Shown here: positions 19,993-25,443 of the stretch, piece by piece
How positions within the stretch are numbered: position 1 is the first letter of the stretch
Layout of the letters: every line of letters begins with the position of its first letter
DNA from: Streptomyces lydicus
Lineage (GTDB): Bacteria > Actinomycetota > Actinomycetes > Streptomycetales > Streptomycetaceae
Reading direction: 5' to 3'
DNA length: 64,000 nt
Assembly: GCF_004125265.1 (NCBI RefSeq)
Contig: NZ_RDTE01000003.1
Coordinates: 3,224,001-3,288,000 of the forward strand
Translations under genes and position numbers: made by a program
Notes under the pieces: generated by a model
What the model was told of the DNA's origin: nothing
The model's input: the letters and a program-made list of their open reading frames with translations, nothing else
Databases searched by the model: none

Positions 19993-22092
19993 TCACGGCA
20001 CCGGCAGCGCGTAGAGCGACGTGCCCTGGAGGATGAAGACCCGGTTGCCGTCCGCCACCAGCCAGGAACGCTCGGCCGCGGGGAGCTTGTACGTCAGGAC
20101 GGGCACGCCGGTCGACAGATCCACGGCGTACACCTTGTACCAGGGGTCGCCCTCGATGGACCAGAGGGCGCGCCCGTGGATGAACACCGGGAGCCCGAGG
20201 ATGCTCTCCCCGTTCCCGCCCTGGATCTCGCTGCCGTCGCTGCTCTTCCTGATGCTGGGCCACTTGCCGTGCGCGGCGCAGACGGTGCGGTCGTCGAAGA
20301 CCGTCGCCGGGCCCCAGTCCTCGTGCTTGTCCCAGGCATCCCGCTCCTCGACCGACCACAGCTTCTTGCCGTCGCTGATCCGGCGGGCGGTGAGCGTCTT
20401 GCCGTTGAGGTAGACGGTGGTGCCGTGGACGGCCGGGCGGAGCAGGACGTCCCCTTGGCCCGGCAGGTCCCACACCTGGTGGCCGTCGGCCGTGTCGACG
20501 GCGAACACCTTGCCGTCGTCGGTCGACAGGACCAGGCGGCCGTGGGCGACGGCGCCCGGCGGTCCGACCTTGGCGCGGTAGCCGGCGGCGATCTTCGCCG
20601 TCCAGCGGATCGTGGCGTCGGAGCGCCGGACGGCGCGGAGTCGGTGGTCCTTCGTCAGGACGTAGACCGCCTCGTCGTCGGCGGCCAGCAGGACGCTCGC
20701 CTCGGCGTCGACGGTCCAGCGGGGCTCGCCCGTCGAGGCGATGAAGGTGCGGAGCGTGCCCTTGGTGTCGGCGGCGGCGATCAGCCGGTCCGAGAGGGAG
20801 AGGTAGCGGCCGGTCGCGCTGACGCCGCGGACGGCCCAACGCCGTTTGCCGTCCACGACGTTGTGGGCGGCGATCCCGCCGCCGCGTGCGCCGAAGACGA
20901 TGACGTCCCGTACGGGCAGCGGCGCGGGCGTGTCGTCGGCGAGGACGTCGACCGGGCCCCACAGCGGCTTCACCTCACCGCCGCTGAGGTAGTCGCCGTT
21001 GTCGGCGTCGAGGACATGTGCCACCGGGGTCTTTGCGGCGGGCGGAAAGGCGAAGAGATCGGTCTTTGCGGTCGGTTGCCGCGGTGCACGGGGCCACCAG
21101 GCCGCCGCGGCGCCGCCGCCCGCGGCCAGGACCGCGCCGCCCGCCGCCAGGCCCGTCAGCAGCCTGCGCCGGGTCACCGGCCGAACGTCGCCGCCGCCGG
21201 GCAGGGTCGGCGCGGTCAGCTCATGGATGCCGCGCTCCCGCTCCTTGATCGCCTCGGCCACCCGGCCGCGCCGCCAGGCCCGTTCGGCGCCGCGTGGTGG
21301 TGCGAAGGCGGCGGCGATCTCGGCGGGGGCGGGCCGGGCGGTCGGGTCCTTGGCGAGGCAGGGGGCGATGAGGTGCCGCAGGGCTTCCGGGAGGCCGGTC
21401 AGGTCGGGTTCGTCGTGGACGACCTTGTACTGCAGGGCGGCGATGTGGGAGGCGTCGTAGGCGCGATGGCCGCTGGCCGCGTACACCAGGACAGCGCCCA
21501 GGGAGAAGACATCGGCCGAGGAGGCCACGCGGCGGCCCAGGACCTGTTCAGGGGCGCCGTAGCCGGGGGTGACCGGGACCTGGCCGGTGGAGGTGAGGGT
21601 GAGGCCGTGCTCGGGGCGGGCGATACCGAAGTCGATGACGCGGGGGCCGGACGAGGTCAGGACGATGTTCGGGGGTTTGAGGTCGCGGTGGATCAGGCCG
21701 GTGGCGTGGATGTCCGCCAGGGTGTGCGCGATCGACGCGGCGAGGGCGCGCACGGCCGGTTCGTCGAAGGGGCCGTACGCCTCGACGGCCTCGTCGAGGG
21801 TCGGTCCGGCCAGGAACTCGGTGGCGATCCACGGGCGGCCGCCCTCGGTCTGCGCCGCCAGGACGCCCGCCACGCCCTTGCTCGTCACGGCCTGCGCCGC
21901 CTGCGCCTCGCGGACGAAGCGCTGGGCGAGCTGTGGTGCGTCGGCGAGTTCGGGCCGCAGCACCTTGACCGCGGCCACGGTGCCCCCGGCGTCCTGGCCG
22001 ACGTAGACCTTGCCCATTCCGCCTTCGCCGAGCACACCGAGCAGACGGTAGGGGCCGAGGCGGAGCGGATCGCCGGTGCCGAGGGGTTTCAT
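19993..22092 (-). CDS. Receptor-like Ser/Thr protein kinase with PQQ-type propeller (kinase 1)
   Basis: A complete Hanks-type kinase occupies residues 13-270: glycine loop GEGGMGKVY, ATP-binding Lys43 in AAVKVL, HRDLKPPN (135-142), DFG at 154-156 and GYGAPEQ. One membrane helix follows at about 325-345 (RRLLTGLAAGGAVLAAGG). The remaining 350 residues form a predicted extracellular beta-propeller with PQQ-like repeats (G-x-x-x-W-x-V-x-A, GHQVWDLPG). Such proteins sense extracytoplasmic ligands; the ligand here is unknown. The ATG at 22092 is preceded by AAGGA. It is the last of three kinase-fold genes in a row on the minus strand, 112 bp after kinase 2. Confidence 0.93.
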   Translation of the reverse strand: MKPLGTGDPLRLGPYRLLGVLGEGGMGKVYVGQDAGGTVAAVKVLRPELADAPQLAQRFVREAQAAQAVTSKGVAGVLAAQTEGGRPWIATEFLAGPTLDEAVEAYGPFDEPAVRALAASIAHTLADIHATGLIHRDLKPPNIVLTSSGPRVIDFGIARPEHGLTLTSTGQVPVTPGYGAPEQVLGRRVASSADVFSLGAVLVYAASGHRAYDASHIAALQYKVVHDEPDLTGLPEALRHLIAPCLAKDPTARPAPAEIAAAFAPPRGAERAWRRGRVAEAIKERERGIHELTAPTLPGGGDVRPVTRRRLLTGLAAGGAVLAAGGGAAAAWWPRAPRQPTAKTDLFAFPPAAKTPVAHVLDADNGDYLSGGEVKPLWGPVDVLADDTPAPLPVRDVIVFGARGGGIAAHNVVDGKRRWAVRGVSATGRYLSLSDRLIAAADTKGTLRTFIASTGEPRWTVDAEASVLLAADDEAVYVLTKDHRLRAVRRSDATIRWTAKIAAGYRAKVGPPGAVAHGRLVLSTDDGKVFAVDTADGHQVWDLPGQGDVLLRPAVHGTTVYLNGKTLTARRISDGKKLWSVEERDAWDKHEDWGPATVFDDRTVCAAHGKWPSIRKSSDGSEIQGGNGESILGLPVFIHGRALWSIEGDPWYKVYAVDLSTGVPVLTYKLPAAERSWLVADGNRVFILQGTSLYALPVP

Positions 22093-22204
22093 GGGCGGTG
22101 TCCTTCGGGCGAGGTCAGGCAACTGCGGGCGCATGCGGGCGAGTTCGGACAGGAGCAGGCGGGTTCGGCACGGTCAGGCGCGCACGGTGCGCCTGGTGGC
22201 CGGT

Positions 22205-24445
22205 TCAGCGGAGCGGGAAGCCCGCGAGGAAGTCCGGGCCGGAGGCGATGAGCATTCCGCTCTTCTCATGGGCGGTGAACCGGGTCCCGCTGGTCCTGTA
22301 GAACTGCTCGGTGGTGTGCGAGGTGAGGCCGACGGCGCGGAGGAGCTTGTCGGTGTGGCTGTAGGTGTAGGCGTACTCGGAGCCGATCACCGGATGGACG
22401 ACATGGTCCGCCCGCGGGCCCTCCGCGCTGTTCTCCGTCCATCGCGGTTTTCCGCTTCCGGTGCCGAACGCGACCAGGCCGAGGCCCTTCTCCACCGCGT
22501 ACAGCACCCCGTCCTTGAGGACCGGCGGCCCGTACGTCTTCCCGGGGCGGGTGGCGGCCGTGTCCCACGCCTGTCCGCCGTCGCTCAGCCGCAGCGCCCG
22601 CAACGGGCCGTAGCCCAGGTAGAGATGCTGGTCGTCGGCCGTGAGCGGATCCCGTACGAGGCGCCGGTCGGCGCCCTTCCACGGCTTGTCCCAGAGCACC
22701 TTGCCGGTGCGGGTGTCGCGGGCCGCGATCCGGACCGTGCCGTCGTTCATCTGCTGCAGGGTCACCAAGAGGCGGCCGGTGACCTTGGCGGACAGGAAGT
22801 GGTTCTCGTCGCTCTCGGCGGAGTGGAACGGCAGCGGATCGGTCCACTTCCGGCTCCCCGTGGCGAGGTTCACGGCCCTCACGGACCAGGGCAGCTGGCG
22901 TTCGTACCGCTTGACCTTCCCGTGGGAGACCGCCAGGTAGGCCGTGTCACCGGCGACGGCCAGCAGCCGGCTGATGAGGCCGTTGTCCTGCTCGTCCGAG
23001 ACCGGGGCGAGGCGCTTGCCGGCCTTGCCCGTGTCGAGGTCCACCCGGGCGAGGAACCATGTGACGAACCTCAGCGAGCCATTCGCGTCACGGTGCTCGT
23101 CCCTCGCGATCTGGTAGACGCGGGTGCCGTCCGAGGCGACCTGCCACGAGTCGTCCGCATACAGCGAGAGAGTCCACCGCGACGCGCCGGACTTCGCGTC
23201 GACACCGCGCGCCCCCGCGCCTGCCACCAGGACGACCTGGTCACCGGCGAGCAGGGGCACTTCGGGGTTCTGGTCGTCGTCCGGGCCGCCGTACTGCTTC
23301 TGCCACACCGAGTCCAGCTTTGCCTTCTTCACCGGGGCGACGCTCGGCCCCGGCTTCGGCTCGGTGTAGCCGGGCCCGGTGCCGGGGCCCGGCGCCGGCT
23401 CGCCCGCGCCCAGCCAGGCCCACGCCCCCGCCCCGGCCCCCGCGACGCCGAGCACCGACCCGGCGCCCGCCATCAGCAGCCCCCGGCGGGACAGGCGGCG
23501 GGCGGGGACACCGGCGGACGGCAGGGTCGGCGGCGGGCCGGGCGGCGCGGGCAGCCGCTGCGGGACCACCTGCCAGACCTCGCTCGCCCGCCGCCCGATC
23601 TCGGCGAGCACCGCGTCCGGCAGCTGGTCGGCGAACTCCCCCGCACCGTCGTGCAGTCGGTCGGCGAGCTCGGCGGTCGTCGGACGCTTTGCGGCCTCCT
23701 TGGCCAGGCAGCGGGACAGGACCGGGACCAGGGCGGCGGGCACGCCGGTGAGGTCCGGCTCGCCGTAGCGCACCCGGTAGAGGAGGTCCGCCGGCTGCCC
23801 GTTGCCGAACGGGCCGCGGCCGGTGGCGGCGAAGACCAGGACCCCGGCGAGCGCGAAGACGTCCCCGGCCGGGGTGTGCTCCTCTCCGGTGGCCTGCTCC
23901 GGCGACATGAAGGCCGGGGTGCCGACCGCGGCACCGGCATGGGTCAGCCGGTCGTCGCCGAGGGCCCGGGCGATACCGAAGTCGATGACCTTCGGGCCGT
24001 GCGCGGTGACCATGATGTTGGACGGCTTGAGGTCACGGTGTACGACATCCGAGTGATGCAGTTGGCCGAGCGCCCCACACAGCGCCGCCCCGAGGGCGCG
24101 CACCGTCGCCTCGGGCAGCGGACCTGTCTGCTCCACCGCCTCGTCGAGCGGCGGGCCGAGGACGTACTCGGTGGCCATCCACGGGGTTTCGGCGAGCGGA
24201 TCGGCGTCGACGACCTGGGCGCCGTACCGCCCGCCGATGACCCGGGCGGCATCCGCCTCCAGCCGGAAGCGGGTGCGGAACGCGGTCTCCGTGGCGATGT
24301 TGGCGTGCATCGTCTTGAGCGCCAGGGTCCGGCCGCCCGGCGAGCGGGCCAGGTAGACGGTGCCCATGCCGCCGCTGCCCAGCCGGGCGATGAGGCGGTA
24401 CGGGCCGAAGCCGTGCGGGTCGTCATGGGCGAGGGGGAAGGGCAT
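22205..24445 (-). CDS. Receptor-like Ser/Thr protein kinase with PQQ-type propeller (kinase 2)
   Basis: Same architecture as kinase 1. An active-looking kinase domain lies at residues 14-275, with GSGGMGTVY, Lys44 in LALKTMH, VVHRDLKPSN, VIDFGIAR and TPAFMSPEQ. A Pro-rich juxtamembrane stretch and one membrane helix follow (about 325-350, GLLMAGAGSVLGVAGAGAG). About 380 residues of extracellular propeller complete the protein, with repeats such as TGSRKWTDPL and TGKVLWDKPW. It starts 8 bp after the stop of the pseudokinase gene, so the two are surely co-transcribed. It is 746 aa, slightly longer than kinase 1, and the propellers have diverged widely, suggesting different ligands. Confidence 0.93.
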   Translation of the reverse strand: MPFPLAHDDPHGFGPYRLIARLGSGGMGTVYLARSPGGRTLALKTMHANIATETAFRTRFRLEADAARVIGGRYGAQVVDADPLAETPWMATEYVLGPPLDEAVEQTGPLPEATVRALGAALCGALGQLHHSDVVHRDLKPSNIMVTAHGPKVIDFGIARALGDDRLTHAGAAVGTPAFMSPEQATGEEHTPAGDVFALAGVLVFAATGRGPFGNGQPADLLYRVRYGEPDLTGVPAALVPVLSRCLAKEAAKRPTTAELADRLHDGAGEFADQLPDAVLAEIGRRASEVWQVVPQRLPAPPGPPPTLPSAGVPARRLSRRGLLMAGAGSVLGVAGAGAGAWAWLGAGEPAPGPGTGPGYTEPKPGPSVAPVKKAKLDSVWQKQYGGPDDDQNPEVPLLAGDQVVLVAGAGARGVDAKSGASRWTLSLYADDSWQVASDGTRVYQIARDEHRDANGSLRFVTWFLARVDLDTGKAGKRLAPVSDEQDNGLISRLLAVAGDTAYLAVSHGKVKRYERQLPWSVRAVNLATGSRKWTDPLPFHSAESDENHFLSAKVTGRLLVTLQQMNDGTVRIAARDTRTGKVLWDKPWKGADRRLVRDPLTADDQHLYLGYGPLRALRLSDGGQAWDTAATRPGKTYGPPVLKDGVLYAVEKGLGLVAFGTGSGKPRWTENSAEGPRADHVVHPVIGSEYAYTYSHTDKLLRAVGLTSHTTEQFYRTSGTRFTAHEKSGMLIASGPDFLAGFPLR

Positions 24446-24453
24446 GGCGGGCG

Positions 24454-25443
24454 TCAGTCCTGGCGTGCGGCGGGCGGATGCGGGAGGGTCGCGGCGAGCA
24501 CATCGGCCGACTGGCGGGCGAGGGCCGCGATCAGCCGGCCGGGCAGCCAGCCGGGGCCGAGCGCGGCGGCGGCGCGGCCCGCGGGGTTCCCCGCGGCGTC
24601 GAGCACGGTGGCGGGCGGCAGGGGGCCGGCGGCTTCGGGTACCGGTGCTCGCTTGCCCTCCACGGCGAGCGGGCTGAGCGCGTCCAGCACCTCGGCGGGG
24701 CGCGGCCGGGCCGCCGGGTCCCGGGAGAGGCAGCCGGTGATGACGGTCCGCAGGGCGGCCGGGAGCTCTTCCCGCTCCGGCACGGTGTACCCGGTGGCGG
24801 CGTAGGCGAGGGTCGCGCCGAGTGCGTAGACATCGCCCATCGGCTGCGGCCGCCCGCCGGCGGCCTGCTCCGGCGGCAGGCTCCCCGACTCCAGGCCGGG
24901 CAGCCCGGAGCGCGGCGTGCCGTCCCCGGCCGCGGCCCGTACCGCCCCGAAGCAGGTGAGCCGGGGCCCGTCGGCGGCCAGCAGCACGGCGGCGGGCGAC
25001 ACACCGGCATGGGCCAGGCCCTGCCCGTGCCCGATGATCAGGGTCTCCACCAGGGCCGCGCCGAGCGCCCGTACGGTGCGCTCGGGCAGCGGTCCGCCGT
25101 ACAGGGCGAGCGCGGTGGGCAGCGGAATCGCCGGGAGGTAGGGGCGGGCGTGCCAGGGCGCGTCACCGGGCGCGGCGAGTTCGGCGGCCGGTGCGGCCCA
25201 CGGCCCGAGCAGATAGCGCGAGGCCTCCGCCTCGGCCAGGAACCGTCCGGGGTCGGCCCCCGGCAGCGGGACGCCGATCAGCACCGTACGGTCGCCGTCC
25301 GCGCTCCGCCCGATGAACCGCCGCTCCGGTACGGGCACTCCGGACCGCTCGTCATCCAGCGGGCGGAGCACCACGTACGGACCGATAAGGCTCCCGTCCC
25401 CGGCTCCCGCCCGGTCCTCGCCACCCACAACTGGCGCATCCAT
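24454..25443 (-). CDS. Pseudokinase (catalytically dead kinase fold)
   Basis: The 329-residue protein follows the kinase fold, with segments equivalent to both neighbours (RTVRALGAALVETLIIGHGQG, GDVYALGATLAYAATGY, CLSRDPAARPRPAEVLDAL). All three catalytic signatures are lost. The Lys strand reads RTVLIGVPL, HRDLKPxN reads HAGVSPAAV, and DFG reads CFG. The glycine loop is also absent, and there is no membrane helix or propeller. The ATG at 25443 has GGGGG 9 nt upstream; the ATG at 25452 is too close to it. It probably acts as an allosteric partner or scaffold for the adjacent kinases (inference). Confidence 0.85.
   Translation of the reverse strand: MDAPVVGGEDRAGAGDGSLIGPYVVLRPLDDERSGVPVPERRFIGRSADGDRTVLIGVPLPGADPGRFLAEAEASRYLLGPWAAPAAELAAPGDAPWHARPYLPAIPLPTALALYGGPLPERTVRALGAALVETLIIGHGQGLAHAGVSPAAVLLAADGPRLTCFGAVRAAAGDGTPRSGLPGLESGSLPPEQAAGGRPQPMGDVYALGATLAYAATGYTVPEREELPAALRTVITGCLSRDPAARPRPAEVLDALSPLAVEGKRAPVPEAAGPLPPATVLDAAGNPAGRAAAALGPGWLPGRLIAALARQSADVLAATLPHPPAARQD

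Follow-up and report, generated by a model that had tools for sequence, protein, structure and literature searches.

A conserved Streptomyces gene module joining a pseudokinase to two propeller-bearing receptor kinases

Gene layout and predicted fold of the pseudokinase

The window analysed here, a stretch of 64,000 nucleotides from Streptomyces lydicus, carries on its minus strand a gene for a protein that resembles a kinase but has none of the three catalytic residues (PSK), followed by the genes of two receptor-type Ser/Thr kinases (K2 and K3). The features are as follows.

24454..25443, minus strand: PSK gene, 329 aa; predicted kinase fold that lacks the three catalytic residues and shows no clear membrane segment
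24985..25011, minus strand: degenerate catalytic loop HAGVSPAAV, PSK residues 145-153; Gly147 occupies the HRD Asp position
24946..24954, minus strand: CFG replacing DFG, PSK residues 164-166
24487..24540, minus strand: conserved C-terminal helix of PSK, residues 302-319; its counterpart is the pre-membrane segment of propeller-bearing relatives
24446..24453, minus strand: gap of 8 bp between the PSK stop and the K2 start codon
22205..24445, minus strand: K2, receptor-type Ser/Thr kinase, 746 aa; catalytic residues intact, one predicted membrane segment, PQQ_2 propeller
23411..23488, minus strand: K2 membrane segment headed by R320 R321
19993..22134, minus strand: K3, second receptor-type Ser/Thr kinase, 713 aa; catalytic residues intact, PQQ_2 propeller
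21088..21171, minus strand: membrane segment of K3, with RRR at its head (residues 322-324)

The original prediction that every catalytic signature had been erased from PSK was borne out: besides the altered loop and the CFG, the protein has neither a beta-3 Lys nor a glycine loop. An in-frame ATG 9 bp upstream offers an alternative start. The PSK stop codon (24454-24456) lies 8 bases ahead of the K2 ATG (24443-24445), and both K2 and K3 passed the Pfam cut-offs for Pkinase and PQQ_2; PSK does, as had been stated, end just before a propeller kinase, here with intact catalytic residues, that is followed by a second one. The further claim, that PSK is translationally coupled to both kinases, stood in part. 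Coupling of PSK to K2 is plausible from the 8-bp gap, while the K2-K3 intergenic gap is 70 bp, so that proximity coupling can be proposed for the first pair only. On one side of the module is what we take, from resemblance, to be a Maf-like gene, and on the other a gene for a small membrane protein beside an accA2-like gene.

When PSK was compared with Pfam, no family was matched at E ≤ 0.001, and PQQ_2 was not found in it; its best NCBIfam match was the AfsK model NF053615, at 62.5 bits (cut-off 1300). Two free PSK orthologues gave weak Pkinase matches of 20.7 and 23.1 bits, below the 31.7-bit cut-off. A hydrophobicity scan detected no strongly hydrophobic stretch in PSK (the top 19-residue mean was 1.22, in the helix at 126), and the protein is therefore read as soluble. 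An AlphaFold model built from 42 relatives reached a pLDDT of 84.6 and a pTM of 0.84. Its best solved-structure match was PknB (Z 21.6, rmsd 2.8, 223 residues aligned), and the best 50 matches, STRAD chains among them, spanned Z 19.7-21.6; structure prediction, which had been suggested as a check, thus returned a kinase fold.

The alpha-G stretch comprised 20 residues in 51/51 free PSK forms, as against 37 in the K2 and K3 rows, and 18 to 65 in the propeller-bearing (fused) pseudokinases; the PSK model has no helix of four residues or more between 201-217 and 229-238. Residues 291-320 were modelled with block pLDDT values of 91-98. The C-terminal helix lying there in the free forms resembles the pre-membrane segment of the fused pseudokinases, and the K2 model (pTM 0.52) places a helix (277-291) at a comparable position. 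The fold of PSK and its conservation across species exceed chance.

Distribution, gene order and history of the module

Within the genus, 295 genomes were searched, and the PSK family was placed in 68 of them, at 70 places. This figure takes the family list down to E 3.1e-35 and is a reading of that list, since its weakest members touch the best of the other kinases. The module is patchy within the genus (68/295 genomes). A profile search of the order covered 293 genomes, with at least 19 and at most 20 of the genomes listed lying outside the genus; among the matches listed, none of family strength was found outside Streptomyces. Free forms scored about 250 bits or more, the lowest values coming from partial genes, against at most 196 bits for other kinases. 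Two listed propeller-bearing rows, at 202 and 191 bits, overlapped with those kinases, so that the profile is not enough by itself to set the propeller-bearing variant apart. Pseudokinase relatives were also present on three Streptomyces plasmid records (NZ_CP109164.1, NZ_AP026074.1 and NZ_CP081497.1). The first of these (L143), a linear plasmid of 700 kb, bears the genes in the order PSK (whose annotation reads serine/threonine protein kinase), PQQ-propeller protein, protein kinase; NZ_CP109164.1 was the only one of the three records in whose annotation the trio was seen.

Flanking sequence was examined at 63 of the 70 places (G017, G114, G152, G291, G030, G119 and G150 were left out), and gene order was compared in a set of 63 loci made up of 59 of those places, the window and the named genomes L032, L033 and L034. 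PSK, K2 and K3 lay together on one strand in 59 of these 63 loci; the neighbourhood is conserved in the Streptomyces loci compared, so the lack of conservation that had been named beforehand as a refuting outcome was not seen. Forty-six of the 59 read PSK-K2-K3 (with truncated K2 or K3 frames in a few), nine have a second pseudokinase before K2, two read K3-PSK-K2 and two have K3 in two pieces. One of the quartets (L078) was scored as PSK-K2-K2-K3 in the gene-order table its second pseudokinase having scored marginally better with K2. Three of the four remaining loci are cut by contig ends, two of them having K2 and K3 at the end of another contig; in the fourth (G129), ∼7 kb separates PSK from K2-K3. 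The PSK-K2 gap was ≤25 bp in 41 of the 50 loci measured. A free-standing PQQ_2 propeller protein is encoded directly upstream of the pseudokinase at L040:5119-6612 and L089:7215-8651, the latter protein being assigned by similarity to the former.

Searches of the 295 genomes with the propellers found K2 in 55 (E ≤ 1e-20) and K3 in 64 (E ≤ 1e-30). A K2 or K3 ectodomain match was obtained in 64 of the 68 PSK genomes versus 1 of the 227 others (Fisher p 9e-59, uncorrected for the relatedness of the genomes). The sole propeller-positive genome read as PSK-less (G041) still has the C-terminal helix of PSK, next to a gap in the assembly. As for the four PSK genomes without a propeller match, two (G051 and G170) have K2- and K3-like kinase frames adjoining PSK, and the loci of the other two (G069 and G183) are decayed or partly deleted. 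Genome G174 (L118) has an extra K2-K3 copy without PSK, the K2 frame of which is broken. A further K3 fragment lies near its complete trio.

Catalytic residues were counted in one alignment of 51 free and 18 propeller-bearing pseudokinase domains, 58 K2 rows and 54 K3 rows. The beta-3 Lys, the HRD Asp and the DFG Asp were each present in 0/69 pseudokinase domains (two fused rows being gapped at the Lys), and the HRD Asp position was Gly in all 69; homologues with intact catalytic residues, named beforehand as a finding that would speak against the proposal, were absent from this set. All three residues were kept in 58/58 K2 and 54/54 K3 rows, including the K2 of L050, which has RRD for HRD. 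The alpha-C Glu was kept in all 51 free forms and in 15 of the 18 fused ones. Some rows, broken frames and truncated ones among them, had been dropped before the count: the PSK of L053, L080 and L088, another protein of L073, the K2 rows of L040, L080 and L092 plus a paralogue in L064, and the K3 rows of L038, L040, L050, L053 and L080. Where a dropped PSK piece covers these sites, HRD and DFG are absent from it as well; among the dropped K3 rows, that of L038 looks intact and the L050 frame is without the Lys region. Upstream of the trio in G194, L073:3-1838 encodes a protein with an HGGLEPS catalytic loop, which is another candidate pseudokinase.

Nei-Gojobori dN/dS values were 0.17-0.47 for PSK, 0.20-0.58 for K2 and 0.23-0.51 for K3; absolute values are uncertain at this G+C content, and it is the comparison between genes that counts, in which PSK resembles its two active neighbours. 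The row K2 L078 vs L079 (0.70) paired different paralogues and was excluded from the range. In a tree of 98 kinase domains, from which the rows L038 and L078 and the distant outgroup row L064 had been left out, 37 pseudokinases fell on one side of a branch with an SH-aLRT of 100, and 30 K2 and 30 K3 domains were likewise each set apart by an SH-aLRT 100 branch; these were quick trees with SH-aLRT values and no bootstrap. The K3 row L038, the start of which was wrong, had fallen beside the pseudokinases in an earlier tree. Together with the fixed replacement residues, the dN/dS values and the SH-aLRT 100 clade support the suggestion that PSK has been selected for structure rather than left to decay. 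Judged from the gene order, the fixed catalytic loss, the purifying selection, the single clade and the co-inheritance, all of which are read from sequence, the three genes are a real conserved module, the first member of which lacks the catalytic residues of a kinase.

Propeller-bearing pseudokinases were found in 9 of the 63 loci, two per locus (quartets L076-L079 and L081-L085), and the PQQ_2 cut-off was passed in 5/5 of the fused pseudokinases scanned. In an earlier drawn tree, whose root lies outside the pseudokinases, the first branch is a propeller-bearing group, and the other propeller-bearing group, the free form L069 and the remaining free forms arise from an open fork; the branching order inside the pseudokinase clade is not firmly set. 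The free PSK probably lost its propeller sensor, loss being the simpler reading since K2 and K3 also carry propellers.

Membrane anchors, co-divergence and type VII surroundings

R320 R321, which head the K2 membrane segment, were invariant in the 36 K2 proteins aligned, and the strict twin-arginine rule held for 54/56 K2, 44/50 K3 and 14/17 fused pseudokinases. None of the Tat signal models passed its cut-off on the K2 and K3 segments. The K3 segment scored 13.2 of 22.7 bits with Pfam TAT_signal and 14.5 of 16.7 bits with TIGR01409; for the K2 segment neither of these was listed, and the Rieske Tat-signal model gave 8.8 of 24 bits. The segments look like Tat-type signal anchors, which would suggest Tat-dependent insertion of the receptor kinases; this stays a lead, since no Tat model scored above cut-off. 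A search of open-licence papers returned none joining Tat, PQQ, protein kinase and Streptomyces.

Co-divergence was measured across 43 loci. The Spearman correlation of PSK distances was 0.75 with the K2 kinase domain and 0.59 with that of K3; the corresponding partial rank correlations were 0.60 versus 0.19, and the K2-minus-K3 difference was above zero in 500/500 bootstraps. Among the closest loci (both ectodomain distances <0.5, 55 pairs) the partial values were 0.43 for K2 versus 0.40 for K3. Of the two kinases that PSK had been proposed to regulate, co-divergence thus favours K2 over K3 as the putative partner, a preference that fades among the closest loci, and the history shared by PSK and K2 could come from linkage alone, because PSK directly adjoins the K2 kinase domain. 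The mean difference between loci was 41% for PSK and 25% and 26% for the kinase domains of K2 and K3; the propellers are the fast-diverging part (68% in K2 and about 62% in K3). K2 and K3 propeller distances correlated with each other (r 0.90; partial rank 0.64). The idea that the two ectodomains are matched sensors was dropped, the partial correlation being 0.24 and 0.32 in pairs with both distances <0.55 and <0.5.

The module occurs in several different genomic contexts, the largest group noticed being type VII (ESX) secretion. An EccC-like ATPase gene lay within 10 kb of 24 of the 70 pseudokinase places, with ∼0.5 expected within 15 kb; 26 places were >15 kb from EccC on the same contig and 20 had no EccC on their contig (the EccC list behind these distances omits a few weak or second-piece rows). 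The nearest EccC to the module of the window is 84 kb away. Near the ESX-linked modules lay genes for WXG100 proteins, a subtilase and EccD. Of the 24 cases, six (G151, G210, G069, G055, G183 and G096) were seen directly beside rpsO or pnp, and because of this shared position they are one conserved locus and not independent; the stretches available for the other 18 end before rpsO or pnp could show. Within this locus the trio lies between esxA and eccC (G151) or a quartet between eccD and rpsO (G055). The quartets of G105, G184 and G047 are also near pnp, although the sole EccC-like gene that these genomes yielded was a distant one.

EccC at ≥1300 bits was present in 22 of 30 PSK-less single-contig genomes, and in 10 ESX loci examined from PSK-less genomes PSK, K2 and K3 were found in 0/10. 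The esxA-eccC interval in PSK-less genomes (L133-L142) was <0.4 kb in G080, G136, G005 and G044 and reached about 10.7 kb in G124, making it a variable slot with other cargo; homologues of a protein of more than 550 aa without a Pfam match (L058:121-1770) occupy some of these slots. Independent insertions of the module beside type VII genes were not upheld, six of the cases being one locus and the esxA-eccC gap being variable. Since PSK-less ESX loci are without the module and the slot is variable, the module is an optional passenger or regulator at ESX.

Relation to known systems and possible roles of PSK

STRAD-LKB1 and HER3-EGFR are eukaryotic pairs in which a kinase-dead fold partners an active kinase, the partnership having been proven by experiment; for the Streptomyces module it is inferred. 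HER3, being a receptor pseudokinase, is the closer parallel to the propeller-bearing variant. ActPs1, an actinobacterial pseudokinase family, has lost the three catalytic residues, alpha-G is missing in about 60% of its members and many carry a C-terminal PQQ_2 (O'Boyle et al. 2025, PMC12599244). Matched by description, PSK and its fused relatives, being from Streptomyces and therefore actinobacterial, with the three residues substituted and alpha-G missing, fit this description; PQQ_2 was not found in the PSK of the window and is above cut-off in the five fused relatives scanned. Unlike ActPs1 as described, the PSK of the window is free-standing and adjoins two active receptor kinases. Neither a function nor a partner or gene neighbourhood is given in the section on ActPs1, and the main text of that paper does not mention Streptomyces (PMC12599244).

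Over their kinase domains, K2 and K3 scored 277.8 and 240.7 bits with the NCBIfam AfsK model NF053615; they are AfsK-like but, being far below the 1300-bit cut-off, are not AfsK. Streptomyces Ser/Thr kinase genes lying side by side have been described in SCO4775-4779 (pkaI) of S. coelicolor, where five genes are separately transcribed with gaps of 93-173 bp (PMC4416010); the likeness to the module is one of description, and neither 'PQQ' nor 'pseudo' occurs in the main text of that paper. EssB/YukC of T7SSb and mycobacterial MviN are bacterial pseudokinases reported to have scaffold or recruitment roles (PMC12599244). EssB is transmembrane and part of a type VII system, while PSK has no clear membrane segment; the comparison is again one of description, and PSK drew no Pfam family at E ≤ 0.001. 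No report of the three-gene module was found in the open-licence literature, which omits most subscription papers.

We lean, with reserve, towards PSK acting in the cytosol as a non-catalytic partner to the kinase domain of K2, within a conserved signalling module. K2 and K3 would be membrane receptor kinases with fast-diverging extracellular propellers, and soluble PSK would bind K2 at its cytoplasmic kinase domain, most probably in a heterodimer with the two folds packed against each other, and would set the activity of K2, and perhaps through it that of K3, as an allosteric partner or scaffold. PSK would descend from a propeller-bearing receptor pseudokinase that lost its sensor and membrane anchor and kept the pre-membrane helix. 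The fold is a prediction, and we infer that PSK binds physically and that it chooses K2, as well as whether it activates or inhibits, what its ancestor was like and which signal is sensed. Several observations weigh against this reading: the preference for K2 nearly vanishes among the closest pairs, linkage to the K2 kinase domain could alone align the histories, PSK diverges faster than the kinase domains, alpha-G, often a kinase docking surface, is 17 residues shorter in 51/51 free forms, and the extra K2-K3 copy of G174, the K2 frame of which is broken, stands without PSK. Gene order, co-inheritance and a conserved soluble fold would equally fit a PSK that is phosphorylated by K2 or K3 as an adaptor or decoy substrate, recruiting downstream proteins or soaking up phosphorylation while kinase activity stays unchanged; this agrees with the recruitment and scaffold roles described for MviN and EssB/YukC (PMC12599244), and since the present data do not separate an adaptor from an allosteric regulator we keep it as a serious possibility, though a doubtful one. 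A fold turned to other chemistry or to ligand binding, as in SelO or SidJ, with the neighbours not regulated, seems to us quite improbable. The retention of the alpha-C Glu in 51/51 free forms even though its Lys partner is lost, and the Gly that takes the HRD Asp position without exception, speak for it, but the nucleotide-site Lys and both Asp are gone and the tight linkage to K2 and K3 would be left unexplained. That PSK is a decaying kinase duplicate carried by its neighbours is hardly credible: at least two genomes (G069 and G183) have decayed or partly deleted loci and some K2 and K3 frames are broken, but decay of PSK itself was rejected given the dN/dS of 0.17-0.47, the single SH-aLRT 100 clade and the fixed replacement motifs.

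The module might also serve type VII secretion by phosphorylating or gating the ESX machinery or WXG100 substrates, with copies elsewhere, that of the window included, acting at a distance or re-purposed. This is compatible with PSK being a partner of K2, and we hold it tentatively, as something that may well not be so. The 24 of 70 places within 10 kb of an EccC-like gene, far above the ∼0.5 expected within 15 kb, and the WXG100, subtilase and EccD neighbours argue for it, as do the reports of kinases, phosphatases and FHA proteins in T7SS of other subtypes (PMC11217815). Against it stand the six cases at a single rpsO/pnp locus, the esxA-eccC slot that varies and holds other cargo, the ten PSK-less ESX loci without the module, and the places that lie beyond 15 kb of EccC (26, the window at 84 kb among them) or have none on their contig (20). 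For ESX in Streptomyces, a link with sporulation and development has been described (PMC8401907). A bolder proposal, which we consider rather unlikely, is that K2 and K3 signal only when complexed with a dedicated dead kinase, as a HER3-like propeller-bearing pair in one lineage and as a derived, sensor-less cytosolic subunit in another, and that an outside signal would pass through Tat-exported propellers to type VII secretion and development.

Bacterial pseudokinase families have been named without a function being assigned to them (PMC12599244); here, in many species, a pseudokinase keeps its candidate partners beside it in one conserved row of genes. As Streptomyces is genetically manipulable, the combination of candidate partners and genetics makes the role of a bacterial pseudokinase directly testable, and the module may hold a before-and-after series, from receptor pseudokinase to free pseudokinase. 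These results suggest that pairing a dead kinase with live receptors may be a strategy of bacteria as well.
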